A stretch of DNA of 64,000 bases, taken from contig JAUWGS010000006.1 in the NCBI GenBank assembly GCA_030606285.1, forward strand, positions 1 through 64,000, in the 5' to 3' direction. This document shows positions 33,179 to 51,468 of this stretch, one piece after another. Numbering within the stretch: position 1 is the first letter of the stretch; each line of letters begins with the position of its first letter. This DNA is from Planctomycetales bacterium (GTDB lineage Bacteria; 4484-113). Position numbers and translations under genes: made by a program. The notes beneath the pieces are model-generated. The model worked only from the letters and a program-made list of their open reading frames with translations. It did not search any database and was not told the DNA's origin.

Positions 33179-36100
33179 ATGTTTCAAAGAAAGGCAACAT
33201 TTATCTGCGCAGTGTTGTTAGCTGCAACGCTGACGGTCACACTCGTGCTGATTCTAGTCGCGTGCGGGAAGCATCGCGGGCAGATGGCGCAGCTTTCGCT
33301 GACGCCGACGCTACAACAGGAACAGGACGGCTCCGAACAGGCAGATGGTGAGAGCGGCGAAGTGCTGCCGCCGGTTATGGAGCTTGACGAGCTGATGGTA
33401 GGTGCGCCGAAAGGCGTGCGAAACGGTTCTCAGGTTGTAAGCCTCGGCTCCGATTATTCACCCGAGCTTTCAGGTACGACGAGCGACAGCGAATACAGCA
33501 TTGAAGTCGATGGCTCGAAGCTGCATCTTCGAGCCTATGAGCCCGGCGAATACACCTATGCGGTGTACGGCCAGCACGTGGGCGAGATACCCAAACCCCT
33601 GCAATCGCTGCTCGACACAGAAACCTGTAGCTATGGCGGGGAGCAAGACGACGAGATACCGCTTTTATACTACGTGGGCGCAGCGGACTACAGTGCTGGC
33701 TCCTGGCGCTGGTTCGGGCCGTTTAGGCGCAATGACGAGACGGTCTATCTGAATACCGAGACGCTCAAGAACCGGTTCAAGTCACCCAACGACAATTTGT
33801 ATTTAGCTGTCCTCACTGCCAGCGGCGACAAGGCTGCCAGCGCACTGCCGGAAGATGGACTGGTGGGAGAACTCCCATTTGCGGCAGGACTGCGAAACAC
33901 CTGCCAACCCTTCGAAGTCGTTGGTGTGACAATCGTTAGCCTCTCGACCGACACGGGCAGCGGCAGCGGCACCGTGCCCCAAATGGTGACGGGGCTTGAG
34001 GCGGGCATCGTAGCCAGCGGGATTATGCTAAGCTGGGACACCAATCCCGATCCGGACGTGACCAGCTATGAAATTTACCGCAAGGACGCCGGGATTGAAG
34101 GACCGCCGTCATGGCTTGCTTCAGTAGGCGCCTCGCCAACCGAGCATATTGACACCAGCGCAGTAACCGGAACAACCTACCTCTACGGCGTACAAGCGGT
34201 AAACGATGTGGGGCCCGGCGGCATGGGATACGTTACCGTCGGCCCGCCGGTGATTCAAGGGGTGACGCCAACCTCGGGCATCGAGGGCAGTCAGGTTACT
34301 TTCTTCGCGATAGTCTCCGGAAGCCCGCCGTTCACTTACGAGTGGAATTTCGCGGGTGCTGCCCCTCCAAGCTATGATGAAACACCAACCGTAACCCTCG
34401 GCGCACCGGGTAAGTATAACGCTTCTCTTGCGGTGACTAACGAGTTCGCTTCCGACACGTTTGATTTCGAGCTCACGGTGTATGAGTTTGAGCCTGGGCC
34501 CGGTGACTGGTGGATGTTTGGACGTGAGCCAACGCACAATCGGAGAAGCCCCTATGTGGGGGCACAAACAGCAACCCTCAAGTGGAGCTACGAGACAGGT
34601 GGCCACGTACTATCCAGCCCGGCGATAGGGGTAGACGGGACCGTCTACGTGGGAAGCGATGACAGCTACCTCTACGCCATCAATCCGGACGGGGCGCTCA
34701 AGTGGCAATACCTGACCGACGGAGCAGTGAACTCCAGTCCAGCGATAGGCGCGGATGGAACTATATACGTGGGAAGCGGTGACGACTACCTCTACGCCAT
34801 CAATCCCGATGGCAGCGAAAAGTGGCGCTACGGGACGGGCGGCGGTGTGAACTCTAGTCCGGCGATAGGTGCAGACGGAACTATCTATGTGGGAAGCCGC
34901 GACTTCTACCTCTACGCCATCAGCGATGATGAAACCAAAGGGACGCTGAAGTGGAGATACAAGACAGGTGGATGCGTCGACTCCAGTCCGGCGATAGGCG
35001 CCGATGGCACTGTATATGTGGGAAGCGATGACAAATACCTCTACGCCCTCAAGCCGGACGGGGCGCTCAAGTGGCAATACCAGACCGGCGGCTGTGTGCG
35101 CTCCAGTCCAGCGATAGGCCCCAATGGAACCATCTATGTGGGAAGCTGTGACTACTACCTCTACGCCATCAGCGATGATGAAACCAAAGGGACGCTGAAG
35201 TGGCGCTATGAGACCGAGCGTGACGTGCGCTCCTCCAGTCCAGCCATAGGCGCCGATGGAACCATCTATGTGGGTAGCTATAGCTTTTACGGCTACCTCT
35301 ATGCCATCAATCCTGATGGGACGCGCAAGTGGCGATACGAGACGTATTTCCATGTGAACTCTAGTCCGGCGATAGGGGCCGATGGAACTGTTTATGTGGG
35401 AAACCGTGACCGCTACCTCTACGCCATCAGCGATGATGAAACCAAAGGGACGCTGAAGTGGAGATACAAGACAGGTGGATGCGTCGACTCCAGTCCGGCG
35501 ATAGGCGCCGATGGCACTGTATATGTGGGAAGCTACGACAACGGCCTTTACGCGTTTGGTGGTTCGGGAGGCAGTCCTCCAACGATAAACTCGGTCAGCC
35601 CGACCGAGGGGCTTGAAGGGACGGTGGTGGAGTTCTCTGCAGAAGTCACCGGCGACGGCCCGTTCACCTACTACTGGGACTTCGATGGTGGGGCCAATCC
35701 TAACACTAGCAGTCAGGCTGGGCCAATGGTCACTCTGTTAAGTGCTGGCATATACAACGCTAGTGTAATTGTGTCGAATGCACATGGAAACGACGAATAC
35801 GGGTTTGAGCTGACAGTGAATGAAGGTCCACAACCACCCGACCCGCCGACAGACTTGTTTGCATCCGATGGCACGTACACGGACAGGATAGAAATCACAT
35901 GGACTGCAAGTATCGGCGCGACCTCCTACAAAGTGTATCGGGCCACGACTCAGTATGGAACCTACAATCTGCTTGCCAGCCCAACCGGCACCTTCTACGA
36001 CGATGACCCCGGCGATACGAACACCTACTGGTACAAGGCGAAGGCGCATAATGACGGTGGTGACAGCGGATACTCGAATGCTGACGATGGACACAAGGGG

Positions 36101-37144
36101 ATCGAGCCCGAGTGGCACATAATCAGTGTATTTAGCGGGAGTGATTGCGAGTACACATCGCTTGAAGTTGTTAGCGGTTATCCCGCCATCAGCTACTACG
36201 ACTGCGACAACGCTGACCTCAAGTATGTGCGGGCAACGAATGCAAGCGGTGGAAGCTGGGGAATCCCGGTGACCGTTGACGCCCCCGGGTCTGTGGGCAT
36301 GTGGACTTCGCTAGCGGTGGTGGATGGCAATCCCGCCATTAGCTATTGGTACGGCACCAACAGTGATCTGAAGTATGCGCGGGCAATCACGAGTACGGGA
36401 GACAGTGCTTCCGACTGGACGCAGATAGTGACGGTGGATAGCGCCGGGTCTGTGGGGAAGTACACATCGCTTGTTGTCATCAACAGCAAGCCCGCTATCA
36501 GCTACTATGACGAGGACAACGCTAACCTCAAGTATGCGCGGGCGACTACGAGCACGGGAGGGAGTGCTTCCGACTGGACGCAGATATTGACAGTGGATAG
36601 CGACGGGGCTGTGGGCGCATACACCTCCCTGGCAGAAGTCAATGGCAACCCCACTGTTAGCTACTACGACTACGACAACGCTGCCCTCAAGTATGTGCGG
36701 GCAAATGATGCAAGTGGGAGTAGCTGGGGCACACCGCAAACCGTGGATAGCACGGAAGATGTGGGGTTGTACACTTCGCTTGCAGTAGTCAACAGCATTC
36801 CCGCAATAAGCTACCAGGATCACAGCAACCAGAATCTTATGTACGTCCGGGCCACGAACTCCACCGGAAGCAGCTGGGGGAGTCCTGTAATGGTTGACAA
36901 CAACGGAGGTTCTTATACTTCGCTGGCAATTGTGGACGGCAATCCCGCGATCGCTTACTACGACTCCAGCTCCCTTTCCTATATACGTGCAACGAACTTA
37001 ACTGGTTCAAGCTGGGGACCTCCAGAGGCAGTAGACGGTGGAGCCCACCAAGATACCTACTTATCGCTCGCTGTCGTTAACGGCCATCCAGCCATCAGCT
37101 ACATATCCGATAGCATGGACCTCAAGTTCGCCATCTATTACTAA
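33179..37144 (+). CDS. giant modular surface lipoprotein A (Fn3/PKD/PQQ propeller/terminal propeller)
   Basis: 1321 aa from ATG 33179 (GGGGAGGGG upstream). Lipobox LVAC at about residue 30. Residues 60-245 form a domain shared only with the 47.9-kb paralogue (RAYEPGEYTYAVYGQ, VGAADYSAGSWRWFGPF). Then come Fn3 (LSWDTNPDPDVTSYEIYR), a PKD-like domain, eight PQQ-type blades (SSPAIGADGTIYVGS ... LYAINPDG; about residues 470-800), a second PKD, another Fn3, and seven TSLAVVNGNPAISYYD...LKYVRA repeats ending DLKFAIYY. It is probably anchored in the outer membrane facing outward, binding protein or glycan; no enzyme motif seen. Confidence 0.85.
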   Translation: MFQRKATFICAVLLAATLTVTLVLILVACGKHRGQMAQLSLTPTLQQEQDGSEQADGESGEVLPPVMELDELMVGAPKGVRNGSQVVSLGSDYSPELSGTTSDSEYSIEVDGSKLHLRAYEPGEYTYAVYGQHVGEIPKPLQSLLDTETCSYGGEQDDEIPLLYYVGAADYSAGSWRWFGPFRRNDETVYLNTETLKNRFKSPNDNLYLAVLTASGDKAASALPEDGLVGELPFAAGLRNTCQPFEVVGVTIVSLSTDTGSGSGTVPQMVTGLEAGIVASGIMLSWDTNPDPDVTSYEIYRKDAGIEGPPSWLASVGASPTEHIDTSAVTGTTYLYGVQAVNDVGPGGMGYVTVGPPVIQGVTPTSGIEGSQVTFFAIVSGSPPFTYEWNFAGAAPPSYDETPTVTLGAPGKYNASLAVTNEFASDTFDFELTVYEFEPGPGDWWMFGREPTHNRRSPYVGAQTATLKWSYETGGHVLSSPAIGVDGTVYVGSDDSYLYAINPDGALKWQYLTDGAVNSSPAIGADGTIYVGSGDDYLYAINPDGSEKWRYGTGGGVNSSPAIGADGTIYVGSRDFYLYAISDDETKGTLKWRYKTGGCVDSSPAIGADGTVYVGSDDKYLYALKPDGALKWQYQTGGCVRSSPAIGPNGTIYVGSCDYYLYAISDDETKGTLKWRYETERDVRSSSPAIGADGTIYVGSYSFYGYLYAINPDGTRKWRYETYFHVNSSPAIGADGTVYVGNRDRYLYAISDDETKGTLKWRYKTGGCVDSSPAIGADGTVYVGSYDNGLYAFGGSGGSPPTINSVSPTEGLEGTVVEFSAEVTGDGPFTYYWDFDGGANPNTSSQAGPMVTLLSAGIYNASVIVSNAHGNDEYGFELTVNEGPQPPDPPTDLFASDGTYTDRIEITWTASIGATSYKVYRATTQYGTYNLLASPTGTFYDDDPGDTNTYWYKAKAHNDGGDSGYSNADDGHKGIEPEWHIISVFSGSDCEYTSLEVVSGYPAISYYDCDNADLKYVRATNASGGSWGIPVTVDAPGSVGMWTSLAVVDGNPAISYWYGTNSDLKYARAITSTGDSASDWTQIVTVDSAGSVGKYTSLVVINSKPAISYYDEDNANLKYARATTSTGGSASDWTQILTVDSDGAVGAYTSLAEVNGNPTVSYYDYDNAALKYVRANDASGSSWGTPQTVDSTEDVGLYTSLAVVNSIPAISYQDHSNQNLMYVRATNSTGSSWGSPVMVDNNGGSYTSLAIVDGNPAIAYYDSSSLSYIRATNLTGSSWGPPEAVDGGAHQDTYLSLAVVNGHPAISYISDSMDLKFAIYY
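34906..35026 (+). repeat. 121-bp perfect internal duplication, first copy
   Basis: By eye, bases 34906-35026 and 35413-35533 are identical. They span one PQQ blade of lipoprotein A (ISDDETKGT ... IGADGTVYVGS). Other blades are close but not identical, indicating recent duplication or gene conversion within the propeller. Confidence 0.7.
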
Positions 37145-37181
37145 GAAGAAGTAGCGAGTAGCGGGGATGGTGGTTGTTCGT

Positions 37182-37213
37182 CCCGCCGGTCACGCGTGGC
37201 GCGTGATGGCGGG
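37182..37213. terminator. hairpin after giant lipoprotein gene A
   Basis: CCCGCCGGTCACGCG and CGCGTGATGGCGGG pair into a long stem around TGG. No T-run follows, so termination is only possible. The outer CCCGCC/GGCGGG arms resemble other intergenic hairpins at 51491, 52879 and 53143. Confidence 0.4.
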
Positions 37214-37348
37214 CAAATGTTGGACGGTCGGCGGTCTGTAGGACGGCAACTTGTATGCCGCCGTGCTTCATCCTCGAACAAGACGGCGCGGTGCAAGTCA
37301 GCCTAAGGCTGATAAATCCCCGCCTACCGGTTTGTTGTAAGAACGTCC

Positions 37349-38155
37349 TCAATCCAGTGGCTTATAGAGGTGCGGCTTCCTGCAGTTGAAGCAGTAGGGA
37401 GCGTCTGTCGGCAGCGCTGTGCCGCAGGACAGGCACTTGGAGTTCCGGTCGGTAAGCATCAGTTGCAGGTCGGCCTGGAAGTGGTCGGTTTCCTCCGGGG
37501 GCAGTTCCTCGTCTTCGAAGTCCTCAAGCTCAGGCTCATCTTCGTCTTCGTCGAGAATAGTGAATTTGTCGGATGGAATCTCCTCTTCTTCGTCGTCTTC
37601 GAAGCGCGTTGCGGCGTTCCCACCTGAGTTGAGGTCTTTCAGCGAGCGCAAGTGGTAGCTGATGTCTTTCTTGAGCTGCTCGGCTTCCTTTATCTCAGCG
37701 GCGTCCGTTTCCAGTTCGAGGTAACGCTCGATGAAGTTCATCGCCAGCGGGTAGTCTTCCTGCTCGAACAGGAAATGAGCGGCGTACCACAGCGCGTGCA
37801 AATCGTCCGGATCAGCGCGCAGGGCGAACTTGAACGAACGCCACACTTCGCGGTCATGCCCCAGCGCTTCGTATGTAAGGCCAAGGAGGTTCCACACCAA
37901 CGGATCGTCGGCATTGAGCTGCGACGCCTGGTTCAGCAACTCCAGCGCCTTGCGGCTGTCCTCGTTGTCGAATGCCTGTTCACCCTCGGCGACCAACACC
38001 TTGTACTTGTCGAGCGCGGCCTGGTCGTCGACCTGCCCCTCAGGCAGCTCGACCGTTTCTTCCTGCGGCAGCTCGCTGACGAGTTCCACCTTACAGTCGA
38101 TGCAGACTCTGAACCCCTCCCGGTATTCAGCCTTACACTTGGGGCAATAAGGCAT
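37349..38155 (-). CDS. zinc-ribbon and TPR protein
   Basis: 268 aa cytoplasmic protein. The N-terminus is a CxxC zinc ribbon (YCPKCKAEY ... CIDCKVEL). Residues 50-150 hold about three TPR units (RKALELLNQASQLNADDPLVW; HDREVWRSFKFALRADPDD). A very acidic stretch (DDEEEEI; DEDEDEPELEDFEDEE) follows, and a second zinc ribbon closes it (CLSCGTALP ... YCFNCRKP). It probably scaffolds a protein complex; no catalytic motif. TACATT stands 6 nt before the ATG, so it may be leaderless. Confidence 0.78.
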   Translation of the reverse strand: MPYCPKCKAEYREGFRVCIDCKVELVSELPQEETVELPEGQVDDQAALDKYKVLVAEGEQAFDNEDSRKALELLNQASQLNADDPLVWNLLGLTYEALGHDREVWRSFKFALRADPDDLHALWYAAHFLFEQEDYPLAMNFIERYLELETDAAEIKEAEQLKKDISYHLRSLKDLNSGGNAATRFEDDEEEEIPSDKFTILDEDEDEPELEDFEDEELPPEETDHFQADLQLMLTDRNSKCLSCGTALPTDAPYCFNCRKPHLYKPLD

Positions 38156-38218
38156 AAGCGAAATGTAGGCGAAAATCCGCCGCTTGTAAAGACTCTGAGG
38201 GAAGTAACGGGGATTTTT

Positions 38219-39547
38219 CTAACCCCAAAGGCGGGAAAGACCGAGCGCGTCGCGGAAAGTAATCAGCAGGATTAAAGATATGAGTATTACAAAACCCACT
38301 TTGTGCGCCAGCGCTTCTTTGCGCTTGTCAATCCGTATTCCTATCGTGTTTAGAAAGAGAAATAGGATGTGCCCGCCATCGAGCGCCGGTATGGGAAACA
38401 GGTTCAGCACCCCCAGGTTCAGCGTGATGACCATAGTTATCATGATCAAGTAATAAGGCCCCGCGCTGAACGACTGTGAGATGAGTTCCGCTATGCCGAG
38501 CGGGCCGGAAACCATCTTCGCGCCTTCGGCAGTGGCCAGAAGCCTGAGCTGGTACACGAAAGCAATCGTTGTGTAAAAGACGTTGCGCAGCGCTCGTACG
38601 ACCGTTTCCTTAACCGGGAGCTTCTCAAGTTCCATGTGGAAGATGATTCCCAGCGAGGCGAGCGTTGTCCCTTCGGGCACCGTTACCGTCAGGCGTTCTT
38701 CGTCGCGTTCCAGCGTTACCTCTACAGGCTCCAGGGAGCCTTCTCCTTCAGGATCGATGAGGAAGTAAACGTCGGTTCCCAGTAAAACCTCGTTTTCGCC
38801 AACGGCGATAATGCGGTCGCCGGGCTTTATGCCCGAAAGGGCGGCAACGGAGTTCGAGGTAACCAGCGCTGTCAACGGCGTGATCTTGTTCACCTGCATG
38901 TTCATCACGCCCAGGCTCGGCCTGCCTTCGTTGTACGGAACCTGCTCGCCGTCCTCCTCAACCGTGAAAATCCGTGGCACCACTTCGCGCGTCAAGATTT
39001 CGCCGCGCCGGTCGAGGGTGATGGTGACAGGCCGGTTCTGCGCTGAGGCTTCACGTATGCGGTCTGCGAGGGACTGGCTGTCGGTGATGCGCTGCCCGTC
39101 AACTTTCTCGATAATGTCGCCGGCTCTAATATCCATCTCCGCCGCGGGCCCCTCAGTCACCACTCCCCGCACAAGAACCACGGACTTGGGGAACCCGATG
39201 AACGACAGCACGAAGATGAGAACCACGGCAAGCACTATGTTGCCCAGTGAGCCGCCTGCAAGGATAAGGAATCTCAATAACGGGTGCTTGGCCCTGAAGG
39301 AATTTTCTGTCAGCGGGTCGTCCGGCTCCATGCCGGCAATGCGCACGAAGCCGCCGATCGGGAAGGCGCAGATGTGGTAGCGCGTGCCACGCCACTCCGC
39401 CGAGACGAGTGAAGGCCCGAAACCCAGTGCGAAGTCTAAGACGTCAACGCGGGCAAGCTTGGCAAACAGCAGGTGCCCCGCCTCGTGCACGAAAATGACG
39501 AGGCCGAGCACAATCACCACTACAAGAATCAGCAAGACGGTGTGCAT
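38219..39547 (-). CDS. rseP: site-2 intramembrane metalloprotease RseP
   Basis: 442 aa inner-membrane zinc protease. Catalytic HEAGH near residue 21 and the third ligand in LFPIPALDGGHILF near the end. Two PDZ domains lie between (VTEGPAAEMDIRAGDIIEKV; VAALSGIKPGDRIIAVGE). It cleaves anti-sigma factors or signal peptide remnants. A TGTTATAAT box lies at 39601-39609 on the minus strand. dxr and bamA, frequent neighbours elsewhere, are absent here. Confidence 0.93.
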   Translation of the reverse strand: MHTVLLILVVVIVLGLVIFVHEAGHLLFAKLARVDVLDFALGFGPSLVSAEWRGTRYHICAFPIGGFVRIAGMEPDDPLTENSFRAKHPLLRFLILAGGSLGNIVLAVVLIFVLSFIGFPKSVVLVRGVVTEGPAAEMDIRAGDIIEKVDGQRITDSQSLADRIREASAQNRPVTITLDRRGEILTREVVPRIFTVEEDGEQVPYNEGRPSLGVMNMQVNKITPLTALVTSNSVAALSGIKPGDRIIAVGENEVLLGTDVYFLIDPEGEGSLEPVEVTLERDEERLTVTVPEGTTLASLGIIFHMELEKLPVKETVVRALRNVFYTTIAFVYQLRLLATAEGAKMVSGPLGIAELISQSFSAGPYYLIMITMVITLNLGVLNLFPIPALDGGHILFLFLNTIGIRIDKRKEALAHKVGFVILISLILLITFRDALGLSRLWG

Positions 39548-39638
39548 CTTGACGACCTGCTCTCGCGGAGCACTTCTTTGCTTGCCCCACGCGCTTTTGC
39601 ATTATAACAGGGGTTGCAGGTGCTGCAGCCTGAAAGGG

Positions 39639-40655
39639 TTACCCTTCTTCCTTGTATGACCGGGACATCAGCTCGGCGATGGCGTCCTGGGGCGGCTTGC
39701 CCTCGTAGATGACCGCGTGTACCTGGCGGGTTATCGGCAAGTCGAGCTCCGGATGCTGCTCTTCCACAAACTGCATCAGCGCCTTGACCGTGCGCACGCC
39801 TTCCGCCACCATCTTGGTCTCGCCCTCAACTTCGGTAAGGCTCATCCCTTTGGCAAACTCCATGCCAGCACAGAAGTTGCGGCTGTCCTCGGAAAACGCG
39901 GTTGCGATGATGTCGCCAAAGCCCGCAAGACCGTACAGCGTGTGCGGGTCGCCGCCGAAGACGGGCAGCACGCGCCGCATCTCCACCACGCCCCGCGTCA
40001 GCAACACGCCGCGGGTGTTCAGCCCTAGGCCCAGGCCCGTGGCGATGCCCGATGCCACCGCCAGGATGTTCTTCAGCGCGCCGCAAACCTCGACGCCCAC
40101 CGGATCCTGGTTCGTGTATAACCGAAGCCCCGGTGTGGAAAGCTCACGCTGGAGACGCGCCGAAATTTCGGTATCGGCGCAGGCGACGACCGACGCCGTA
40201 GGCTGGCCGCGCATTACCTCAACGCTCAGATTGGGCCCGCAAAACTGCACCCAGGTGGGCGCAATATTGGCGAACTCGCGCTGCGCGAAGGCGCTGACGA
40301 GCTCCGTCGGCTCAAACAGTATCCCCTTCACTACGGATACGAACGGTATGCCTTCGGGAAGCTGCGCCGATTGCAGCGCCGCGCCTAGCTGCGGGATGAG
40401 TTCACGCAGGAACTTCGACGGTACTGCGAGGAACACGGCTTCCGCTCCGCTGAGTGCTGCGCCCAGTTCGCCGTGCGCCCGCATTGCAGGATGCAGGCCG
40501 AACTGTGAGTTGAACAGGCAGTTCCTATTCTCGCTGTTGATGCTCTCCACGACTTCCGGCTCGCGCGCCCACAGGTGGACTTCATGGCCGACGGATGACC
40601 AGAGGTGCGCCAGGGTTGTGCCAAACGATCCCGCTCCGACAATGGCGATTCTCAT
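39639..40655 (-). CDS. gpsA: glycerol-3-phosphate dehydrogenase [NAD(P)+]
   Basis: 338 aa. The Rossmann motif IAIVGAGSFGTTLAHLW is at the very start from ATG 40655. Active-site signatures GPNLSVEVMRGQPTA, CGALKNILAVASG and GFGDIIATAFSEDSRN are present. It makes sn-glycerol-3-phosphate from DHAP for phospholipid synthesis. The start overlaps the stop of the aminotransferase gene (ATGA), so translation is coupled; the extension to 40739 is an overlap frame. Confidence 0.95.
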   Translation of the reverse strand: MRIAIVGAGSFGTTLAHLWSSVGHEVHLWAREPEVVESINSENRNCLFNSQFGLHPAMRAHGELGAALSGAEAVFLAVPSKFLRELIPQLGAALQSAQLPEGIPFVSVVKGILFEPTELVSAFAQREFANIAPTWVQFCGPNLSVEVMRGQPTASVVACADTEISARLQRELSTPGLRLYTNQDPVGVEVCGALKNILAVASGIATGLGLGLNTRGVLLTRGVVEMRRVLPVFGGDPHTLYGLAGFGDIIATAFSEDSRNFCAGMEFAKGMSLTEVEGETKMVAEGVRTVKALMQFVEEQHPELDLPITRQVHAVIYEGKPPQDAIAELMSRSYKEEG

Positions 40656-41767
40656 AATGTTCTCTCCAGGGCTTTGCGAAGCGCGCTCACGACTTGCTCC
40701 TGCTCGTTCGCGGTAAGCCCGGGGAAGATTGGCAAACACAGGACTTCGCGTGCCGCCCGCTCCGCTTCGGGAAACGACCCTTCAGCGTGTCCCAGATGCG
40801 ACAGCGCTTTGCACAGATGCAGCGGAGTAGGGTAGTGCACCATTGCGCCGATACCGGCATCATTAAGCCGCTGCTGTACTTCGTCGCGATTCGGCACGCG
40901 TATAGTGTACTGATGGTACGTGTGCTCACAGCCGGGTTTGACCGGCGGAGTGATTACACCAGGCATGTCCGCGAGAAGCTCGTTGTACCGGGCTGCCAGC
41001 GCGCGCCGTTCCTCGTTCCACCTCTGGACGTGCTTCAGCTTGATATTGAGGAATGCCGCCTGTAGTTCGTCCATCCGCGAGTTCATTCCGCGCGTGTCGT
41101 GCTGGTAACGTCCCGACTGCCCGTGGTTGCGCAGCATGCGTACGGCTTCCGCGAGGTTGTCGTAGCGTGTGACGAACGCTCCGGCGTCGCCCAATGCACC
41201 CACGTTCTTCGTCGGGTAGAACGAAAGCGCCGCCATATCCCCGAACACGCCCACCGTCCTGCCGTCTGCTTTAGCGCCAATAGCTTGAGCGCAGTCCTCA
41301 AACACCATTACGCCGCTTTCCTGCCCCACCAGCTTCACGATGCGCTGCATATCACAGGGATGGCCGTAAAGGTGAACCGGTATCACCACGCGGCTCTTGA
41401 GAGTGAAGGCGCGCTCCAGCAGCTCAGGATTCATGCAGAAGCTCTCCGCGTCAATATCCACGAACACCGGCTTTGCGCCCAGAGCGAGAATGCACTCCAC
41501 CGTGGCGAAGAAGGTAAACGGCGCGGTGATAACCTCGTGTTCCGGGCCGACTCCCGCAGCCATAAGGCCCAGCAGCAGCGCGTCCGTTCCGGAGTTGACC
41601 GCTACCGCGTGCTCAACCTCATGCATTTTGGCAAGCGTGCGCTCCAGCGCCGCGTTTTCGTCTCCGGACACGTATCGCCCGGATGAAATTACGCGCGCGG
41701 CGGCTTCCTTCAGCTCGTTTTCCATGCCTGTGTGCACACGGGTCAGATCAAGCGGCGGGACTCGCAT
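40652..41767 (-). CDS. DegT/DnrJ/EryC1 family PLP aminotransferase
   Basis: 371 aa. Family motifs: VNSGTDALLLGLMAAG, VIPVHLYGHPCDM, VFEDCAQAIGAKA, the PLP-lysine loop SFYPTKNVGALGDAG, and RNHGQSGRYQHDTRGMNSRM. It transaminates nucleotide-linked keto-sugars for surface polysaccharides; no other sugar gene is adjacent. A TGATACAAT box (complement of 41774-41782) ends 6 nt before the ATG and no ribosome site is present, so the message is probably leaderless. Confidence 0.92.
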   Translation of the reverse strand: MRVPPLDLTRVHTGMENELKEAAARVISSGRYVSGDENAALERTLAKMHEVEHAVAVNSGTDALLLGLMAAGVGPEHEVITAPFTFFATVECILALGAKPVFVDIDAESFCMNPELLERAFTLKSRVVIPVHLYGHPCDMQRIVKLVGQESGVMVFEDCAQAIGAKADGRTVGVFGDMAALSFYPTKNVGALGDAGAFVTRYDNLAEAVRMLRNHGQSGRYQHDTRGMNSRMDELQAAFLNIKLKHVQRWNEERRALAARYNELLADMPGVITPPVKPGCEHTYHQYTIRVPNRDEVQQRLNDAGIGAMVHYPTPLHLCKALSHLGHAEGSFPEAERAAREVLCLPIFPGLTANEQEQVVSALRKALERTL

Positions 41768-41773
41768 GAGATG

Positions 41774-41782
41774 ATTGTATCA
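41774..41782 (-). promoter_or_regulatory. extended -10 for a leaderless aminotransferase message
   Basis: TGATACAAT, then CATCTC, then ATG. The transcription start would fall on or next to the start codon. Confidence 0.55.
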
Positions 41783-41932
41783 AAGCGAGTGTTCTGTGCG
41801 GGCGTGCGCCCCGCGGTGGGCACTTCGGGGCGCCAATGCGGTCGGCCTGGAACTATCCTACAGCCTGCCGCATCCTCTGATTTAACGCCGCTCGCCATAG
41901 CGCGGCGGCTTAGGTGCAGTGCGGGAGGTCTA

Positions 41933-41941
41933 TGATATAAT
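41933..41941 (+). promoter_or_regulatory. extended -10 promoter
   Basis: TGATATAAT, 27 bp before the ATG at 41969, with GAAGGAGG between. Divergent from the aminotransferase promoter. Confidence 0.6.
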
Positions 41942-41968
41942 CGCACGCGCCAGAGAAGGAGGTTTCAA

Positions 41969-43255: not shown

Positions 43256-43290
43256 CCGCAGTAGAGGCTTATAGCCGGGAATACTTGCAG

Positions 43291-43310
43291 GAGGGCCCTG
43301 CGGGGCCCTC
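43291..43310 (+). terminator. hairpin terminator
   Basis: Perfect 8-bp stem GAGGGCCC/GGGCCCTC around TGCG, followed by TTGCGCATT. The T-run is poor, so its efficiency is uncertain. Confidence 0.55.
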
Positions 43311-43395
43311 TTGCGCATTAGTGTGAGATGTGGCGTGCGGCGGGGCCGGGTTTCCCTGTGGCGGCAGCCCGGGGTTGCCGGGCGAGGGCAGCGGA

Positions 43396-43424
43396 TTGTC
43401 CACTCCGGCGGCGCTTGGTATAAT
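43396..43424 (+). promoter_or_regulatory. tRNA-Ser promoter
   Basis: TTGTCC (43396-43401), a 17-bp spacer and TATAAT (43419-43424), which is also an extended TGG-TATAAT. Transcription should begin right at the tRNA 5' end. Confidence 0.75.
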
Positions 43425-43433
43425 ACAGGGCGC

Positions 43434-43523
43434 GGAGAGATGGCCGAGTGGACGAAGGCGGTTGCCTGCTAAGCAATTGTGCGGTGATCAGCTGCACCGT
43501 GGGTTCGAATCCCACTCTCTCCG
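43434..43523 (+). tRNA. tRNA-Ser(GCU)
   Basis: 90 nt. Acceptor stem GGAGAGA/TCTCTCC closes with G as discriminator. The anticodon loop CTGCTAA gives anticodon GCT, the long variable arm is typical of Ser, and the T-arm reads GTGGGTTCGAATCCCAC. CCA is not encoded. Confidence 0.95.
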
Positions 43524-43607
43524 CTTAAATCACGGTAGCCAGTCCTGCGCGACCTGGATCATCATCTCCCCTAGAATCCAGCGTTCCTCGCTGCACGTAC
43601 GATTCGT

Positions 43608-43613
43608 TATAAT
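43608..43613 (+). promoter_or_regulatory. -10 box directly before a GTG start
   Basis: TATAAT, 8 nt before GTG 43622; no room for a normal ribosome site, so a leaderless message is likely. Confidence 0.45.
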
Positions 43614-43621
43614 CGGGAGCG

Positions 43622-44257
43622 GTGATTGCGAGAGACTCAGATAAGGTGCCGGAATCGCTCCCCAATGAGTACTTGCAGAAACTGCGCGGGCTTGAAGAGC
43701 ACTATCTCGCCCACGACGACCCCATCCGGCAGTCGGGCTTTTCCGGCGGCGAAGAGCGCTGGAAGAAAGAGCGCGGAATCATCCTGGATGCGGTGGACGA
43801 GGATGGGAGCTTCCTCGATATCGGCTGCGCCAACGGCTACCTGATGGAATGTCTTGTTGAGTGGGCAAAGCTTAAGGGCGTCACGTTGACACCATATGGA
43901 GTGGATTTGGGCGCGCGCCTGATCGAGCTGGCGAAGCGGCGCTTCCCACAATATGCGTCGCACTTCTGGGTGGCAAACGCCTGGGATTGGCGGCCACCGT
44001 GCAAATTCCGCTACGTCTACGCTCTTCATGACTGTGTTCCTAAGGACTATCTGCATCACTGGGTCAGAAGACTGCTTGCGCATTACGTCGAAGGCAGCGG
44101 CACGCTCATAGTTGGCGCCTACGGTAGTTATTCGGAAAACCAGCCGGCGCGGGATATAGCGGGAGAACTCAGCGCTCACGGCTTCACCGTTTCCGGTTCT
44201 GCATCCAGCGGAGAACTCCCCGTTTCAACAGTCGCGTGGGTCAAGATAAGAGAGTAG
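43622..44257 (+). CDS. class I SAM-dependent methyltransferase
   Basis: 211 aa. The SAM-binding loop FLDIGCANGYLMECL lies at about residue 66, followed by the acidic strand end TPYGVDLG and FWVANAWDW. The substrate cannot be inferred. It starts at GTG 43622 and seems to be transcribed as a leaderless message from the TATAAT at 43608. Confidence 0.82.
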   Translation: MIARDSDKVPESLPNEYLQKLRGLEEHYLAHDDPIRQSGFSGGEERWKKERGIILDAVDEDGSFLDIGCANGYLMECLVEWAKLKGVTLTPYGVDLGARLIELAKRRFPQYASHFWVANAWDWRPPCKFRYVYALHDCVPKDYLHHWVRRLLAHYVEGSGTLIVGAYGSYSENQPARDIAGELSAHGFTVSGSASSGELPVSTVAWVKIRE

Positions 44258-44333
44258 GCGGGGACTATCCGCCAGCAAATGCTCCTTTGTCATGCCCAAC
44301 CGAACACATTGAGCTTTCGCGCGTCAAACGTGC

Positions 44334-46661
44334 ATGGGGTACAAAGGTCTCACACTAACGGTTTTGGGAAGTTTAGTCTTCGCGCTTTTCCTTGCTTTCA
44401 CGCCGGCTCATCGGGCGCTGGCCGACGGGATTATGATCCCGCCGCCTGACGTACCGATACACAGCGCATTCGCCATCCGCTACCACAGGGTAACGGTGGA
44501 CGTTCAGGACGGGTTTGTGCGCACGTCCATCGACCAGGAATTCGAGAACCTGACGGGCCGGCGCATCCAGGCGGACTACGTCTTTCCGATGCCAATAGGC
44601 GCGGTGCTGCAGGACTTCGCTATGTGGGTGGGTGGCGAAAAGGTCACCGGCGAGGTTCTCCCTGCCAGTGAAGCCCGGCGGATCTACGAGGATATCGTGC
44701 GCGCGCAGCTCGATCCAGCGCTTCTGGAATACATCGGCAACGACGCCTTCCGGGCACGCGTTTTCCCCATCGAGCCGGGCGAACGCAAGCGGATACAGCT
44801 CAGCTACACGCAGGTTCTGCAAGCGGACAACGGCGTCTACGAGTACGTCTACCCGCTCAACACCGAGAAGTTCAGCGCGCGGCTGATTGACGAGGTAACC
44901 GTCAGCGGGAAGATTGAGACCACGGTGCCCATCAAGACGGTGTATTCCCCATCGCATGCGATAAGCGTTAGCCGCAACGGCGACAATTACGCAAGCTTTA
45001 GCTATGAGGAAACAAACGTGCGCCCCAACATCGACTTCGTCCTCTATTACTCAGTTGACGCGCGCGAGATCGGTGCAAGCCTGCTAGCGTACGACGCCGA
45101 CGACGCGGAGGACGGCTTCTTCCTGGCAACGCTTACGCCGCGAGTGGAGTCGGACGCGAAGGTGATCAACAAGAACTTCCTCTTCGTGCTCGACAAGAGC
45201 GGGAGCATGCAGGACGACGACAAGATTGACCAGGCCAAAGGCGCGCTGCGTTTCGTCCTGCGAAACCTTAACGAGGGTGATCGCTTCAACGTCATCGCGT
45301 ACTCCGACGAGCTCTGGACGTGTTTCGAAGACGGGATGAAGACCTGGTCGGGAAGCACGCGGGACGACGCGCTGGACTTCGTGGGGCAGTTCGACGCCGT
45401 GGGCGGTACCAACATCAACGAGGCGTTGCTACGCGCGCTGGATATGCTGAAAGCCGAGGGTGGCGAGAAGCCCGGCTACATCGTGTTCTTGACCGACGGC
45501 CTTCCCACGGTCGGGGTAACCGATGAGAATAGCATCATCGAAAACGTCACCAATGCCAATCGCGCTGGAGCGAGACTGTTCGCCTTCGGCGTGGGATATG
45601 ATGTAAACACGCACCTGCTGGACAAGCTCTCTGAATCCAACCACGGCATCACCGAATACGTGCGCCCCGGCGAGAGCATCGAGGTTAAGGTATCCAGCTT
45701 CTACTCCAAGATCTCAAGCCCGGTGCTGACGGGCGTGAAGCTCAACTTCGCAGGCGTGAAGGTCAAGGAGCTATATCCCCGCGAGATGCCAGACCTCTTC
45801 AAGGGTGAGCAGGTAATTCTTGCAGGTCGGTTCACGCCTGGCGCGGGAAGCGCAACGATTGAGCTTACGGGCAAGGTAGGCGGCAAGCCGAAGAGCTTCC
45901 GCTACCCGGTGAGCTTCGCCAGCCGCAGCAGCTACAGCTTCGTGCCGCGCGTGTGGGCGGGCCGGAAGATTGGCTATCTCACCGACGAGATCCGCCTGCA
46001 CGGTTCAAACGACGAGCTAATAGAGGAAATCGTGCGCCTGTCCAAGCGCTACGGCATCATCACCGAGTACACGAGCTTCCTCATCCGCGACGAGGACACA
46101 TTCTTTGCGCCCGAAGAGGATAATCTGGCGCGGGCGCGTGATATGGGCATAGAGCTGGAGGAGGTCAAATCCGGCGCTGGTGGAGTGGGGCAGTCCCAGA
46201 CAGCTCAGCGGCTGAAGGGTCACGCGGCAGGTGGTCAGGGCGCAGCAAACGCGCCTGCGGCCTACTACGACATAGCGGGACGGGAAGTGCAGGTGACCAA
46301 CATCAACTACCTCGACGACGTCACGTTCTTCCTGATCGATGACTACTGGACGGACAGCCGTTACGACCCCGAGGTTCATGAAATCATCGAAGTAAAGGCC
46401 TTCAGCGACGCCTATTTCAGGCTGCTGGAGGATGGCCAGTTGCTCAACCGGCAGATGGCGCAGGGTGAACAGGTGATAATCGTCCTTGACGCCGAGAACG
46501 CGCTGAAGATAAGCCGCGAGGAGGGACAGGAGAGCCTGTCCGACAACGAGGTCGCGCGAATCCAGCAGCAGATGGCCTCAGCCGCTGTGACCAGTGCGGG
46601 CACAAACTGGTTCGCTATGCTCATCAACGCAGGCTCGCTCTGGCAGTTCGTGCTGATCTGA
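44334..46661 (+). CDS. exported VIT - vWA domain protein
   Basis: 775 aa. After a signal peptide (LTVLGSLVFALFLAFTP ... ALA), residues 45-165 form a VIT domain (EFENLTGRRIQADYVFPMP; ARRIYEDIVRAQLDPALLEY). A vWA domain follows from about 280 with the intact MIDAS FVLDKSGSMQDD, then GGTNINEAL and VFLTDGLPTVG. The C-terminal half holds beta-rich segments and a Gly/Gln/Ala linker near 620. It resembles bacterial inter-alpha-trypsin-inhibitor heavy-chain homologues, which are extracytoplasmic and probably bind ligands through a metal. No ribosome site is obvious at ATG 44334. Confidence 0.88.
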   Translation: MGYKGLTLTVLGSLVFALFLAFTPAHRALADGIMIPPPDVPIHSAFAIRYHRVTVDVQDGFVRTSIDQEFENLTGRRIQADYVFPMPIGAVLQDFAMWVGGEKVTGEVLPASEARRIYEDIVRAQLDPALLEYIGNDAFRARVFPIEPGERKRIQLSYTQVLQADNGVYEYVYPLNTEKFSARLIDEVTVSGKIETTVPIKTVYSPSHAISVSRNGDNYASFSYEETNVRPNIDFVLYYSVDAREIGASLLAYDADDAEDGFFLATLTPRVESDAKVINKNFLFVLDKSGSMQDDDKIDQAKGALRFVLRNLNEGDRFNVIAYSDELWTCFEDGMKTWSGSTRDDALDFVGQFDAVGGTNINEALLRALDMLKAEGGEKPGYIVFLTDGLPTVGVTDENSIIENVTNANRAGARLFAFGVGYDVNTHLLDKLSESNHGITEYVRPGESIEVKVSSFYSKISSPVLTGVKLNFAGVKVKELYPREMPDLFKGEQVILAGRFTPGAGSATIELTGKVGGKPKSFRYPVSFASRSSYSFVPRVWAGRKIGYLTDEIRLHGSNDELIEEIVRLSKRYGIITEYTSFLIRDEDTFFAPEEDNLARARDMGIELEEVKSGAGGVGQSQTAQRLKGHAAGGQGAANAPAAYYDIAGREVQVTNINYLDDVTFFLIDDYWTDSRYDPEVHEIIEVKAFSDAYFRLLEDGQLLNRQMAQGEQVIIVLDAENALKISREEGQESLSDNEVARIQQQMASAAVTSAGTNWFAMLINAGSLWQFVLI

Positions 46662-46803
46662 GCGCGGTTGCGCGGGCAGTACAGTCAGGTGATGGTTGCA
46701 GCAATCGCTGCCTTGCGTGACACATCGCGCCCCCGTCTGGTATTATAGTGGTGAGCCGCTGCACGTGGGGTGGCTACTCAGTCAGATTGGAGGGAATGTG
46801 GGG

Positions 46804-47892
46804 ATGCGAAACTCGTACTCAGTATCAGGTTCTAGATGCCTGTGTATGCTGTCGATTGCACTTGCGGTGATGCTGCTTCTGCTTTCGGCTTGCGGAGGCT
46901 TCGGTATACAACTGGTCACCCAGTACCAAACGGTGCCAGCCGGTCCGAGCCAGTCTTCGCCGCAAGAGACCCGCGCAGACCTTGACGCGCAGTCGGTGCC
47001 TGACGGTGTTGACCCGGCGCTGTATGCGCAGCTGAAGGATGCGCTGTTCAGCGAGCTGCTGAAGGTCCAGGGCGGGAAGAACGCCTCCCAGCCGCCGACC
47101 GGAGACCTCAACCTGGTCGCTGACCTTGAGCTTGCGGTGGTCGAGACCGAGTACCACCTCATCTGGAGCTACCGCAACTTGGGCGATTATGACCAGAACG
47201 GTGCAGTGGGGATTTCCGACATCACGCCAATCGCCATTCACTATGGCGAAGCGGTGCCCGAAATCGATGGCCAGCCGGACGACTACTCGATACAGGCGGT
47301 CGTGGACGGCAGCGGCAACGGTACGGTAGACATCGCCGACATCACGCCGATTGCGATGAACTACGGCACCACGGTTGACGGCTACGCGGTTCAGACCAGC
47401 GGGGATGAGGCGCAGACGTGGGATGACCTGCCGCCGGTGCTTGTTACAGCCGCGACAGGCGAAGGGCGCAAAGGCTTCGAAGTGTTGCTGGAATCGCCGA
47501 TTGAGCGCAACATCTACCATGTCGTTCCATATTTCGGCGAGGAAGATGGCGACGACAGCAACGCGGTGCGCTACTTCACGAGCAAACTCGTCCTGATAGT
47601 GGAGACGCCGCCGGAGAGCGGCGCGGGCACGGCAGAAGACCCGTACGTCGTGATGCTTGACACGCCCTACTGGCTGCGCGTGGAGGACGATGAAGAGGCT
47701 GATGTCAGCGCTGGTGTGGCATTCGAGACAATGCCGCCGGCGTTTATCGCCTTCACAGCCGAGGAGCCGCGCCTGATGACGGTGGAGAGCATCATGGCGG
47801 GGGACTTCACGGTCGTGGCGCTGCTGGGAGAGTTAGCGCCGATGCCGTCAGGCGACGTGTACTTCCGGGCGCAGGGCACATTGCCGCCCTAA
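46804..47892 (+). CDS. lipoprotein with dockerin-like calcium repeats
   Basis: 362 aa from ATG 46804 (GGAGGG 9 nt upstream; GTG 46798 also possible). The lipobox LLLSAC follows a hydrophobic segment. Two EF-hand-like dockerin repeats are clear: YDQNGAVGISDITPIAIHYG and VDGSGNGTVDIADITPIAMN. A beta-rich C-terminal part follows. Dockerin pairs bind cohesins in cellulosomes or serve as calcium-stabilised modules on surface proteins. No cohesin is recognised in the window. It sits directly before the second giant lipoprotein gene. Confidence 0.8.
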   Translation: MRNSYSVSGSRCLCMLSIALAVMLLLLSACGGFGIQLVTQYQTVPAGPSQSSPQETRADLDAQSVPDGVDPALYAQLKDALFSELLKVQGGKNASQPPTGDLNLVADLELAVVETEYHLIWSYRNLGDYDQNGAVGISDITPIAIHYGEAVPEIDGQPDDYSIQAVVDGSGNGTVDIADITPIAMNYGTTVDGYAVQTSGDEAQTWDDLPPVLVTAATGEGRKGFEVLLESPIERNIYHVVPYFGEEDGDDSNAVRYFTSKLVLIVETPPESGAGTAEDPYVVMLDTPYWLRVEDDEEADVSAGVAFETMPPAFIAFTAEEPRLMTVESIMAGDFTVVALLGELAPMPSGDVYFRAQGTLPP

Positions 47893-47940
47893 AGCGCCTG
47901 ATTTCAGCCAATAGACTTGAGCCCCTGAGAGGGGCATGAG

Positions 47941-50900
47941 GTGATGATGATGGCGAGGAAACGAGTTCTCGCGGTAGTAGCTGTCGCACTGATGGTTTTG
48001 GCTCTCGCCGCCTGCGGGTATAGTCGGGGTCAAGTGGTTCAGCTGACGCCAATGCTGTCGGAGCAACAAGTACAGGACAGCTCCGAGCAGTCAGGTGATG
48101 ACGGCGGAGTGCTGCCGCCGGTTATGGCGCTGGACGGGTGCATCGCGGTGTCGCGAAGCGTGTCGGAGGACGAGACGGTCACCAGCCCGGGATGGGAGGC
48201 GTATATCAACGATCAGACCGGCACCAACGGCACATCCGGCTTGAACGTGGAGATGGAAGGGACGGCGCTGACGCTCAGAGCCTACACGCCGGGCGAGTAT
48301 GCGTACGCGGTGTACGGGCAACCCATCGTCGGAACGCCAAAGCCTTTGCAGACGCTGATTGACAGCGAGGTCTGCGCGTTCGGCGGGGGTCAGGATGACG
48401 ACATACCGCTTTCATACTTCGTGGGCGCGGCGGACTACAGCCTGGGTTCCTGGCGCTGGTTCGGGCCGTTTGGCGAAGAAGACGTGATAGTGACGATGAA
48501 CTCGGAGACGCTGCGGAGCCGGTTCAAGTCACCCAACGGCAACTTTTACCTGTGTGTGCTGGCAAGCAACGGAGGCCGCGCGGCGAGCGCGCTGCCGGAG
48601 GAAGGATACGTTGCGGACTTCCCGATTGAACCGCGCGACCGCGCAGTGTCGACGGAGGACGACGATCCGGGCGGCTTGACGATAGAAGAAATCTGCACCT
48701 GGGTGGCGGAGAATCTGTATACGGAGCCTGCGGTGGTGACGGGGCTTTCGGTAAGCACCTCCACTGCTGGCGTAACGCTGGACTGGGACAAGAACCCGGA
48801 TCCTGATGTTGACATCTTTCAGATTTTCCGGGCAGACCCGGACGTCGAGGGCTCGCAGGACAAGATTGCATCGGTTCTTGACCCGGACACGGATTTCAGC
48901 GATTCAGCCGACGACCCGGTGTATCCGATGTTCGGCTGGAGTGTTGGAGTGCCGGGCAAGGAATATAGGTACAGCGTGCGGGCGCGCAATGATGCGGGCT
49001 ATGGCGGATACAGCACGGTGAGCGGCATCCGGCTGATGACTGCGCCGAGTGTGACCGCATCCGACGGCGCGTACAGCAACCACGTGCACGTTGAATGGAC
49101 GAGCGTAGAGGGCGCGGAGGGCTATATCCTGCTGCGCGGCGACACGATGGAGGAGACTCCCGTGGAGCTAGACCAGTTCGACGCGGAGACGCTGAGCTAC
49201 GACGACTACAGCGGCACAGTCGGGCAGACCTACTACTACTGGGTGCAGGCACTGGGCGAGGACGCAGAGGGGCCGCTAGGCGGGCCGGATGCGGGGTTTA
49301 TGGCGGAGCTTGAGCCGGTGCAGGTGACAGCGACTGACGGCGACTATCCGGATAGAGTGGAGCTCGTCTGGGGTGAGATTGAGGACCCGATACCTGAAGC
49401 GTACAACGTCTATCGCGATACGGATGAGATAGAAGGGGGAGAGGAGTTCTTAGGCTCAGTGGCGCCGCCAGAGCATTCGTATTCGGACACTACTGCGCCG
49501 TGGGATGAGCCACGCTTCTACTTCGTAAAGCCGGTCATAGACAGCGTCGAGCAGCCGCGCGGCGTTGGCGACTGGGGACATCGTGGGCTCAGTACTCCCG
49601 GTGGTATGGTTGCTACACAGGGGACGTTTGCCGGTAAGGTGGCGGTGAGCTGGGATGCGGTGAACCAGGCGACGCGGTATCGGGTGTACCGGAGCGTTAC
49701 TGCGGACGACCCCGACCCAGGCTATCTCGATGAGGTTGAAACGCCTGCCACCAGCTACGAGGACACTGCGGCCAACTGGGGAGACACTGAGGGTGTGCAT
49801 TACTTTTACTTCATCACCGCATTGCACTCGGGGCCCGACGAGGAGAGAAGTCCTCTGAGTGAGTCCGCCGAAGGTTGGCGTGGTATTGGAATCCCGGCGA
49901 ACGTGAGCGCTAGTGACGGCTCCGCCACAGGCTCGGTGAATGTGTCGTGGGCTGCAGTGTCACAGGCGACGCACTATCGCGTGTATCGCAGCACCGTCGA
50001 TAACGATCCGGCACCGGTTCTGCTGGACACGGTGGCCGCGCCATCATTGGGCTACAGCGACACGACGGCGGCGCACGACACGCTTTACTGGTATAGCGTG
50101 AGCGCGCTCTACAGCGGCGACGAAGGCGCGAAGAGCGCCGATGACAGTGGCTATCGCGGCCTGGAACCGCCGCTCAACGTCCAGGCGTCAGACGACTTAG
50201 AGGACACAATCGAAATCACCTGGAGCACCGTGACCGGCGCGACTGGTTACATCATCTACCGCTCCACAACCGAAACCGGCACGTACACGCAAATCGGCAC
50301 CGACACCGCCAGCCCCTACACCGATGGCCCCTTCACGCCGCCCGTAACCTACTGGTACAAACTCAAGGCTACTAACTCGTTGGCAGTTAGTGCTTTTAGC
50401 AGTGCTAGCAAAGGTATTGCAGGCGTTCCCGAGTGGCATATCGAGGTAGTAGACAGCGAAGGGCTTGTGGGCTGGTACACCTCGCTGGCGGTGGTCAATG
50501 GCAATCCCGCCATCAGCTACTACGACTGGGGCAACGACGACCTCAAGTATGTGCGGGCGAGTGATGCCAGCGGCGGAAGCTGGGGAAGCCCGCTAACCCT
50601 GGATAGCGCGGGATTTGTGGGCGAATACACCTCCCTGGCAGTAGTCAACGACTTTCCCGCCATTAGCTACTTTGACTACAACAACTGGGACCTCAAGTAT
50701 GTTCGTGCGAGTGATGCGAATGGGGGCAGTTGGGGAACTCCTGATATCATTGATAGCGTGGGAAATGTGGGCATGTACACCTCCCTTGCAGTAGTTAATG
50801 GCAATCCCGCCATTAGCTACATGGACTTCTCCAACCAACACCTGAAGTATGTGCGCGCGAGTGACGCCAGCGGGGGAAGCTGGGGCCCGCCGGTAACCGT

Positions 50901-51468
50901 TGATAGCGGCACGGGAATGGTGGGCCGATACACCTCCCTGGCAGTAGTCAATGGCAATCCCGCCATCAGCTACCGCAACGAAACCTACGACGACCTCAAG
51001 TACATTCGGGCAATTGATGCAAATGGTGATAGCTGGGACACGCCGGTAACCCTGGATAGCGATGGAAGTGTGGGCCTGTTTACCTCCCTGGCAGTAATCA
51101 ATGACAATCCCGCCATCAGCTACTGGGACGTCACCAATGAAGACCTGAAGTATGTGCGGGCGGATGATGCCAGCGGCGGAAGCTGGGGAAGCCCGCTAAC
51201 CCTGGATAGCGTGGGAACTGTGGGCGAATACACCTCCCTGGCCGTAGTCAATGGCAATCCCGCCATCAGCTACTACGACGGCACCAACTACGACCTCAAG
51301 TATGTGCGGGCGACCGATACCAGCGGGGGAAGCTGGGGCACTCCGGTCATTGTGGATAACGCGGGGAATGTGGGCGGGCATACCTCCCTGGCAGTAGTAA
51401 ACGGATACCCCGCCATCAGCTACTACGATGCCACCAACGACGACCTCAAGTTCGCCATATATTACTAA
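47941..51468 (+). CDS. giant modular surface lipoprotein B (multi-Fn3, terminal propeller)
   Basis: 1175 aa; GTG 47941 is followed by three in-frame ATGs, so the exact start is open. Lipobox LALAAC. Residues 45-220 are the domain shared with lipoprotein A (RAYTPGEYAYAVYGQ, VGAADYSLGSWRWFGPF, NSETLRSRFKSPNGNFYL). About six Fn3-like units follow (VSWDAVNQATRYRVYRS; ITWSTVTGATGYIIYRS). The end is seven YTSLAVVNGNPAISYYD repeats of about 48 residues, closing DLKFAIYY exactly as in A. It lacks the PQQ propeller and PKD domains. 48 bp separate it from the dockerin-like gene. Confidence 0.85.
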   Translation: MMMMARKRVLAVVAVALMVLALAACGYSRGQVVQLTPMLSEQQVQDSSEQSGDDGGVLPPVMALDGCIAVSRSVSEDETVTSPGWEAYINDQTGTNGTSGLNVEMEGTALTLRAYTPGEYAYAVYGQPIVGTPKPLQTLIDSEVCAFGGGQDDDIPLSYFVGAADYSLGSWRWFGPFGEEDVIVTMNSETLRSRFKSPNGNFYLCVLASNGGRAASALPEEGYVADFPIEPRDRAVSTEDDDPGGLTIEEICTWVAENLYTEPAVVTGLSVSTSTAGVTLDWDKNPDPDVDIFQIFRADPDVEGSQDKIASVLDPDTDFSDSADDPVYPMFGWSVGVPGKEYRYSVRARNDAGYGGYSTVSGIRLMTAPSVTASDGAYSNHVHVEWTSVEGAEGYILLRGDTMEETPVELDQFDAETLSYDDYSGTVGQTYYYWVQALGEDAEGPLGGPDAGFMAELEPVQVTATDGDYPDRVELVWGEIEDPIPEAYNVYRDTDEIEGGEEFLGSVAPPEHSYSDTTAPWDEPRFYFVKPVIDSVEQPRGVGDWGHRGLSTPGGMVATQGTFAGKVAVSWDAVNQATRYRVYRSVTADDPDPGYLDEVETPATSYEDTAANWGDTEGVHYFYFITALHSGPDEERSPLSESAEGWRGIGIPANVSASDGSATGSVNVSWAAVSQATHYRVYRSTVDNDPAPVLLDTVAAPSLGYSDTTAAHDTLYWYSVSALYSGDEGAKSADDSGYRGLEPPLNVQASDDLEDTIEITWSTVTGATGYIIYRSTTETGTYTQIGTDTASPYTDGPFTPPVTYWYKLKATNSLAVSAFSSASKGIAGVPEWHIEVVDSEGLVGWYTSLAVVNGNPAISYYDWGNDDLKYVRASDASGGSWGSPLTLDSAGFVGEYTSLAVVNDFPAISYFDYNNWDLKYVRASDANGGSWGTPDIIDSVGNVGMYTSLAVVNGNPAISYMDFSNQHLKYVRASDASGGSWGPPVTVDSGTGMVGRYTSLAVVNGNPAISYRNETYDDLKYIRAIDANGDSWDTPVTLDSDGSVGLFTSLAVINDNPAISYWDVTNEDLKYVRADDASGGSWGSPLTLDSVGTVGEYTSLAVVNGNPAISYYDGTNYDLKYVRATDTSGGSWGTPVIVDNAGNVGGHTSLAVVNGYPAISYYDATNDDLKFAIYY

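Follow-up and report, generated by a model that had tools for sequence, protein, structure and literature searches.

Lipoproteins A and B, encoded in the 64,000-nucleotide window (the whole stretch of DNA analysed here), belong to a modular family in which the N-terminal base is constant and everything beyond it is exchangeable, the C-terminal seven-repeat propeller included. Among the genomes searched, the N-terminal domain (N-domain) of this base is restricted to one candidate phylum, its genes have expanded in number, and the propeller has been shuffled among different N-termini. On balance, though far from securely, we read A and B as a base that is specific to the phylum, anchored by lipid and fitted with exchangeable modules for binding outside the cell, which here would form a multivalent, lectin-like tip.

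Architecture of lipoproteins A and B

The two genes and their parts, with the evidence for each assignment, are as follows.

33179-37144, + strand: lipoprotein A, whole open reading frame, ATG start
33179-33265, + strand: A, signal peptide and lipobox LVAC; the Cys aligns with C25, invariant in 45 family members
33266-33880, + strand: A, acidic linker and N-domain (core 33494-33841); profile and alignment
34001-35809, + strand: A, middle modules overall; Pfam
34001-34219, + strand: A, Fn3; Pfam
between Fn3 and PQQ propeller, + strand: A, PKD-like domain; Pfam
about 34730-35428 (Pfam stretches), + strand: A, PQQ/BamB-type propeller; Pfam
35609-35809, + strand: A, second PKD; Pfam
36092-37141, + strand: A, C-terminal seven-repeat propeller; seven units by HMM, profile match
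46696-47892, + strand: lipoprotein directly upstream of B, double dockerin-like EF-hand motif; sequence
47941-51468, + strand: lipoprotein B, whole open reading frame, start GTG 47941 or ATG 47944
47941-48015, + strand: B, signal peptide and lipobox LAAC; sequence
48016-48660, + strand: B, linker and N-domain (core 48241-48588); no Pfam, NCBIfam or PDB match
48700-50400 (approximate boundaries), + strand: B, run of Fn3-like domains; weak Pfam fn3 and sequence
50434-51465, + strand: B, predicted C-terminal seven-bladed propeller; AlphaFold2, Foldseek, VIA-align

The ATG start of A at 33179 lies downstream of AGGGGAGGGG, a strong Shine-Dalgarno sequence. Both proteins have the signal peptide and lipobox cysteine of bacterial lipoproteins, the lipoboxes being read as LVAC in A (Cys at 33263) and LAAC in B (Cys at 48013). 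In agreement with the original prediction, their N-termini are shared, with 56% identity over ~205 residues, including a core of ~125 residues that contains the motif VGAADYS.GSWRWFGPF. The predicted common ending is also present, DLKFAIYY forming the last residues of both proteins, and a repeat HMM finds exactly seven C-terminal units in A and seven in B. Neither Pfam nor NCBIfam gave a confident family for either end of the two proteins.

Between the ends, A contains, in this order, Fn3, PKD, a PQQ/BamB-type propeller, PKD and an Fn3-like domain, and B contains Fn3-like domains only, with weak Pfam fn3 matches. The middles thus differ, as had been proposed (PQQ/PKD versus Fn3); they are not wholly unlike, since Fn3-like domains flank the PQQ propeller of A on both sides.

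The region between A and B also encodes a protein with a VIT plus a VWA domain (44334-46661). In the lipoprotein directly upstream of B, the double motif reads GDYDQNG..ISDITPI and DGSGNGTVDIADITPI (SDITPI/ADITPI) and has no confident Pfam match. The pairing of this gene with B is kept at locus L018 of a related genome. Elsewhere in the window's genome, the same dockerin-like module acts as an alternative N-terminal base that carries the propeller.

The N-domain is conserved and restricted to one phylum

A profile built from 11 N-domain sequences was run on the window's genome, on genomes of the phylum and on genomes outside it. The window's genome yields 17 matches, and those listed all have E-values of 5.5e-24 or better. 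As some matches are halves of broken genes (C33/C24 with C2/C20), we estimate the true count at about 15 genes. Several of the contigs C2, C16, C18, C19, C20, C24 and C33 of this genome end within N-domain genes, some of them at the same motif; these repeats have therefore fragmented the assembly, and the numbers of genes should be read as estimates. Within the phylum, the domain is present in nine of ten genomes (17, 4, 1, 96, 73, 108, 60, 4, 0 and 6 matches, about 369 in all). With the phylum genomes as positive control, the same query found no match in 79 genomes outside the phylum. No N-domain was found in viral contigs, and a search of plasmids and phages gave no match.

The genome with 108 matches (G005) carries N-domain genes in tandem, with four consecutive genes in contig C11 and three in C109. 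Its listed frames average about 850 residues, so that by extrapolation the family perhaps fills ~7% of this 4.0 Mb genome.

An alignment of 59 members defines a core of ~110-125 residues with the pattern YyvGvadYs.grWeWhGPf. The lipobox Cys and one core Trp are invariant in 45 aligned full-length, divergent members; the aromatic residues of GRWxWxGPF are invariant or near-invariant, Trp171 being invariant. The domain had been proposed to be undescribed, and it appears so in the libraries searched: Pfam gave no match, NCBIfam gave none over the domain and sub-cut-off matches at the signal peptide only, and the best match among PDB sequences had an E-value of 0.15. As the AlphaFold2 model, calculated from a three-sequence alignment, is of low confidence (pLDDT 36.6), this assessment is based on sequence libraries. 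We found no description of this kind of family in the literature.

B and L018 are likely orthologues, with identities of 88% in the N-domain, 74-84% in the Fn3 parts and 69% in the propeller. With dS near 1, the propeller has a dN/dS ratio of 0.21, against 0.09 in the N-domain. As judged from these sequences, the base is conserved and the tip evolves faster, with purifying selection acting on both. Recent gene conversion among paralogues was considered and rejected, as no stretch of at least 100 bp at 93% DNA identity or more was present in the genes compared.

The N-domain is the sole universal domain of the family, and its invariant and near-invariant aromatics could point to a new carbohydrate- or protein-binding module, with the distal modules acting as spacers. 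This assignment of roles seems doubtful to us: the N-domain adjoins the membrane anchor, beneath the stalk, and in B and L018, the only orthologue pair compared, no other part evolves more slowly. Its position would rather suit a base or spacer than a binder.

Distal modules and cellular location

After the N-domain, the usual order is an Fn3-like domain followed by varied modules. Among 45 members, PKD is found in 29 and a PQQ-type propeller in up to 11; NHL, carboxypeptidase-regulatory (CarboxypepD_reg), SdrD_B and SpaA domains also occur. One member, L021, has a PPC match, and L146 resembles PPC repeats.

The genome encodes Omp85 and two secretins, which makes an outer membrane and export routes likely; these proteins speak only to the presence of the outer membrane, not to the side that the lipoproteins face. 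MacB_PCD was rejected as a marker of LolCDE, since it is not diagnostic and matches in 13 of 14 control genomes. The architecture of A and B suggests display at the cell surface. With a lipid anchor that by itself is silent on the membrane side, and with PQQ/BamB-type propellers in several members, the proteins could instead face the periplasm as outer-membrane lipoproteins, serving as scaffolds or, like BamB, as assembly factors rather than as surface receptors. We hold this to be rather unlikely. With diverse adhesin-like modules (Fn3, PKD, SdrD_B, PPC) and between 17 and 108 copies in a genome, the family is unlike an assembly factor, and outside the phylum the propeller occurs in signal-peptide proteins that, by our reading, have apparent C-terminal secretion or sorting tails.

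The C-terminal repeats are predicted to form a seven-bladed propeller

The propeller of B was modelled with AlphaFold2 from an alignment of A, B and the relative L018. The model, of 353 residues, has high confidence (pLDDT 92.4, pTM 0.91) and 28 strands, and places the repeats in the fold class that had been proposed, a seven-bladed beta-propeller, with seven four-stranded blades in a predicted closed ring. The modelled strand order starts with a single strand (WHIEVV), followed by six full units and a final unit that is one strand short. This order agrees with the proposed velcro closure, in which the N-terminal strand would complete the last blade in a 3+1 arrangement.

Within the family, seven repeat units are found in 22 N-domain proteins, 14 in one, and five to six are detectable in a few; 13 proteins without an N-domain also have seven units. 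In genomes outside the phylum, seven units are present in seven proteins; the unrelated contig L148 has 14. The likeness of A and B goes beyond chance: most members of the family keep strictly to 7 or 14 repeats, and the N-domain occurs in 17 places of the genome. The protein with 14 repeats is an N-domain lipoprotein (L031, 3516-7400, - strand), in which the repeats would form two seven-bladed propellers in tandem. At L023 (5737-8548, - strand), a gene encoding N-domain and Fn3 (844 residues) is succeeded by a second frame, which overlaps it and carries the final propeller repeats; from the sequence, either a frameshift or a misassembly seems to have split the propeller.

Each blade comprises ~50 residues and contains one Trp, conserved at 99%, and an Asp-box-like turn, (ST)DA(SN)GxSW, between the third and fourth strand. 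The B blades have a mean internal identity of 69%. Between homologues, cognate blades are 0.58-0.73 identical, compared with 0.57-0.72 for non-cognate blades. All positions conserved in at least 85% of 14 propellers recur at equivalent blade positions, which favours repeated equivalent sites over a single active site. The most variable columns are the D-A and B-C loops, on one face according to our strand assignment; as loops vary in most proteins, this variable face is weak evidence.

The best 20 PDB matches of the model in Foldseek are all Photorhabdus PLL/PHL lectins, with E-values of 1.6e-16 to 7e-15, TM-scores of 0.76-0.80 (about 0.78) and 12-14% identity. VIA-align ranks the CylK propeller first (Z 36.6, rmsd 2.3 over 324 residues), followed by PLL lectins at Z 33-35 and, at lower ranks, integrin propellers and polysaccharide lyases. 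In both programs the matches to seven-bladed structures extend over the whole propeller. By sequence, neither phmmer nor profiles of three and 14 sequences gave a PLL/PHL match against the PDB at E <= 10, which leaves distant kinship possible. Nor did these searches link the repeats to any other PDB propeller; the sole listed match was a designed protein at chance level. Hence, as the sequence searches connect the repeats neither to PLL nor to another propeller of solved structure, the common fold does not prove a common function, and the list of fold neighbours also takes in an enzyme (CylK), lyases and integrins.

The glycoside hydrolase BT3686 and the ulvan lyase PL25 are among the fold neighbours as well, and one relative has a BNR_4 Pfam match, from which the propeller itself might be taken for an enzyme, a glycoside hydrolase or polysaccharide lyase of this kind. 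We consider this improbable: across 14 propellers no blade-specific conserved polar residue, and thus no candidate active site, was found, and the blades have almost no positional identity, unlike those of an enzyme with one asymmetric site.

Instead, the propeller of A and B would most likely be a multivalent binder, as its predicted fold is like that of PLL/PHL and conserved residues are present in every blade. By this analogy and these repeated residues, its ligand may be sugar.

Propellers and N-termini are exchanged

The original prediction described two shared ends with swappable middles, forming a display platform. Swappable modules are indeed seen across the phylum; the two ends, however, are not a fixed pair, and they are not both constant. 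In the window's genome, N-domain genes without a seven-bladed propeller exist (L021, L022, L024). Conversely, in L064, L065, L066 and L070 the propeller follows an N-terminus with dockerin-like EF-hands, and in L068 and L073 it comes shortly after a signal peptide of the lipoprotein type with a bare lipobox. Outside the phylum, too, it is common: a profile search over 279 genomes detects it in 33. Three such proteins of other phyla (L159, L165, L167) carry, besides a seven-repeat propeller, a signal peptide at the N-terminus and, at the C-terminus, a tail that to us looks like a secretion-sorting domain. A propeller was found in one viral contig, L148; as the neighbouring protein ends like a PEP-CTERM protein, the contig is probably a bacterial fragment and was rejected as a viral carrier.

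The relationships of the propellers do not track those of the N-domains. On the propeller tree, most of which, the deep branches especially, is poorly resolved, the presence of the N-domain requires nine changes, of which at least three are forced by the starred branches. The propellers of B and L028 are sisters (support 96/97), with the N-domain of L028 sitting in the group of A, and the propeller nearest to that of A is in the dockerin-type protein L070. Paralogues are common and some form tandem arrays, yet these groupings and the different kinds of distal modules between members make it very unlikely that A and B are alike simply because a single gene was duplicated, without any modular platform behind them.

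Proposed role and implications

For the lectin-tipped, lipid-anchored base that we favour, the following arrangement is proposed. The lipobox Cys would anchor the protein through its lipid. A flexible acidic linker of ~70-100 residues and a single copy of the ~125-residue N-domain would follow as the conserved base, and an Ig-like stalk of Fn3 or PKD domains would hold the distal module away from the outer membrane. The propeller that takes this distal position in A and B would then bind several ligand molecules, probably glycans, so that an exposed position at the surface and an adhesive or capture role appear plausible. New propellers may arise by amplification or homogenisation of blades, and would then be shuffled between anchors.

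Taken singly, none of the components is new: the propeller fold, stalks of Fn3 and PKD domains and lipid anchoring have all been described before. New are an N-domain, unnamed in the sequence libraries used, that is restricted to one phylum and reaches very high copy number, a widespread, unnamed family of seven-bladed propellers, and the combinatorial use of the two. An uncultured phylum apparently invests heavily in one modular lipoprotein family that these libraries recognise at neither end. Separate family models are merited for the N-domain and the propeller repeat, and the latter may well represent a lectin family that has so far gone unrecognised.

More speculatively, and with some reluctance, the N-domain might be seen as a phylum-specific sorting or docking domain that is read by dedicated outer-membrane machinery, with ~100 different lipoprotein cargos displayed per cell. 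If so, the phylum would have its own general surface-display system, and lipoprotein surface display in it would become testable.

Comparison with known systems

A sorting or docking N-domain would be similar in role to the C-terminal domain of T9SS and to SLAM, but unrelated to them. The CylK C-terminal propeller (PDB 7fh7) gives the best VIA Z-score here; CylK is an alkylating enzyme, and no sequence link to it was found. With Asp-box/BNR propellers, the repeats share an Asp-box-like turn, and BNR_4 and weak BNR_2 Pfam matches occur in relatives, with no BNR match by Pfam in A and B themselves. This turn is related to, but is not, the canonical Asp-box (SxDxGxTW between strands C and D), as its Asp lies six residues before the Trp instead of five.

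Propellers whose blades share a median internal identity of more than 60% are reported to be widespread (PMC9218822). In its 69% mean internal identity, and in blades that resemble the cognate and non-cognate blades of a homologue about equally, B is like such recently amplified propellers; the present propeller family is without its own Pfam model. The PLL/PHL lectins (PMC6943638, PMC5584973) are alike in the seven blades of four strands, here predicted, and in the repeated Trp-containing units. They differ in sequence, with 11-14% identity, and in being stand-alone lectins, whereas the propeller described here is the C-terminal module of a large lipoprotein. As a whole, A and B resemble modular bacterial surface adhesins with Fn3, PKD, SdrD_B and CNA-B stalks, with which they share a beta-sandwich stalk and exchangeable distal modules, but from which they are set apart by the lipid anchor and by a phylum-specific N-domain between anchor and stalk.
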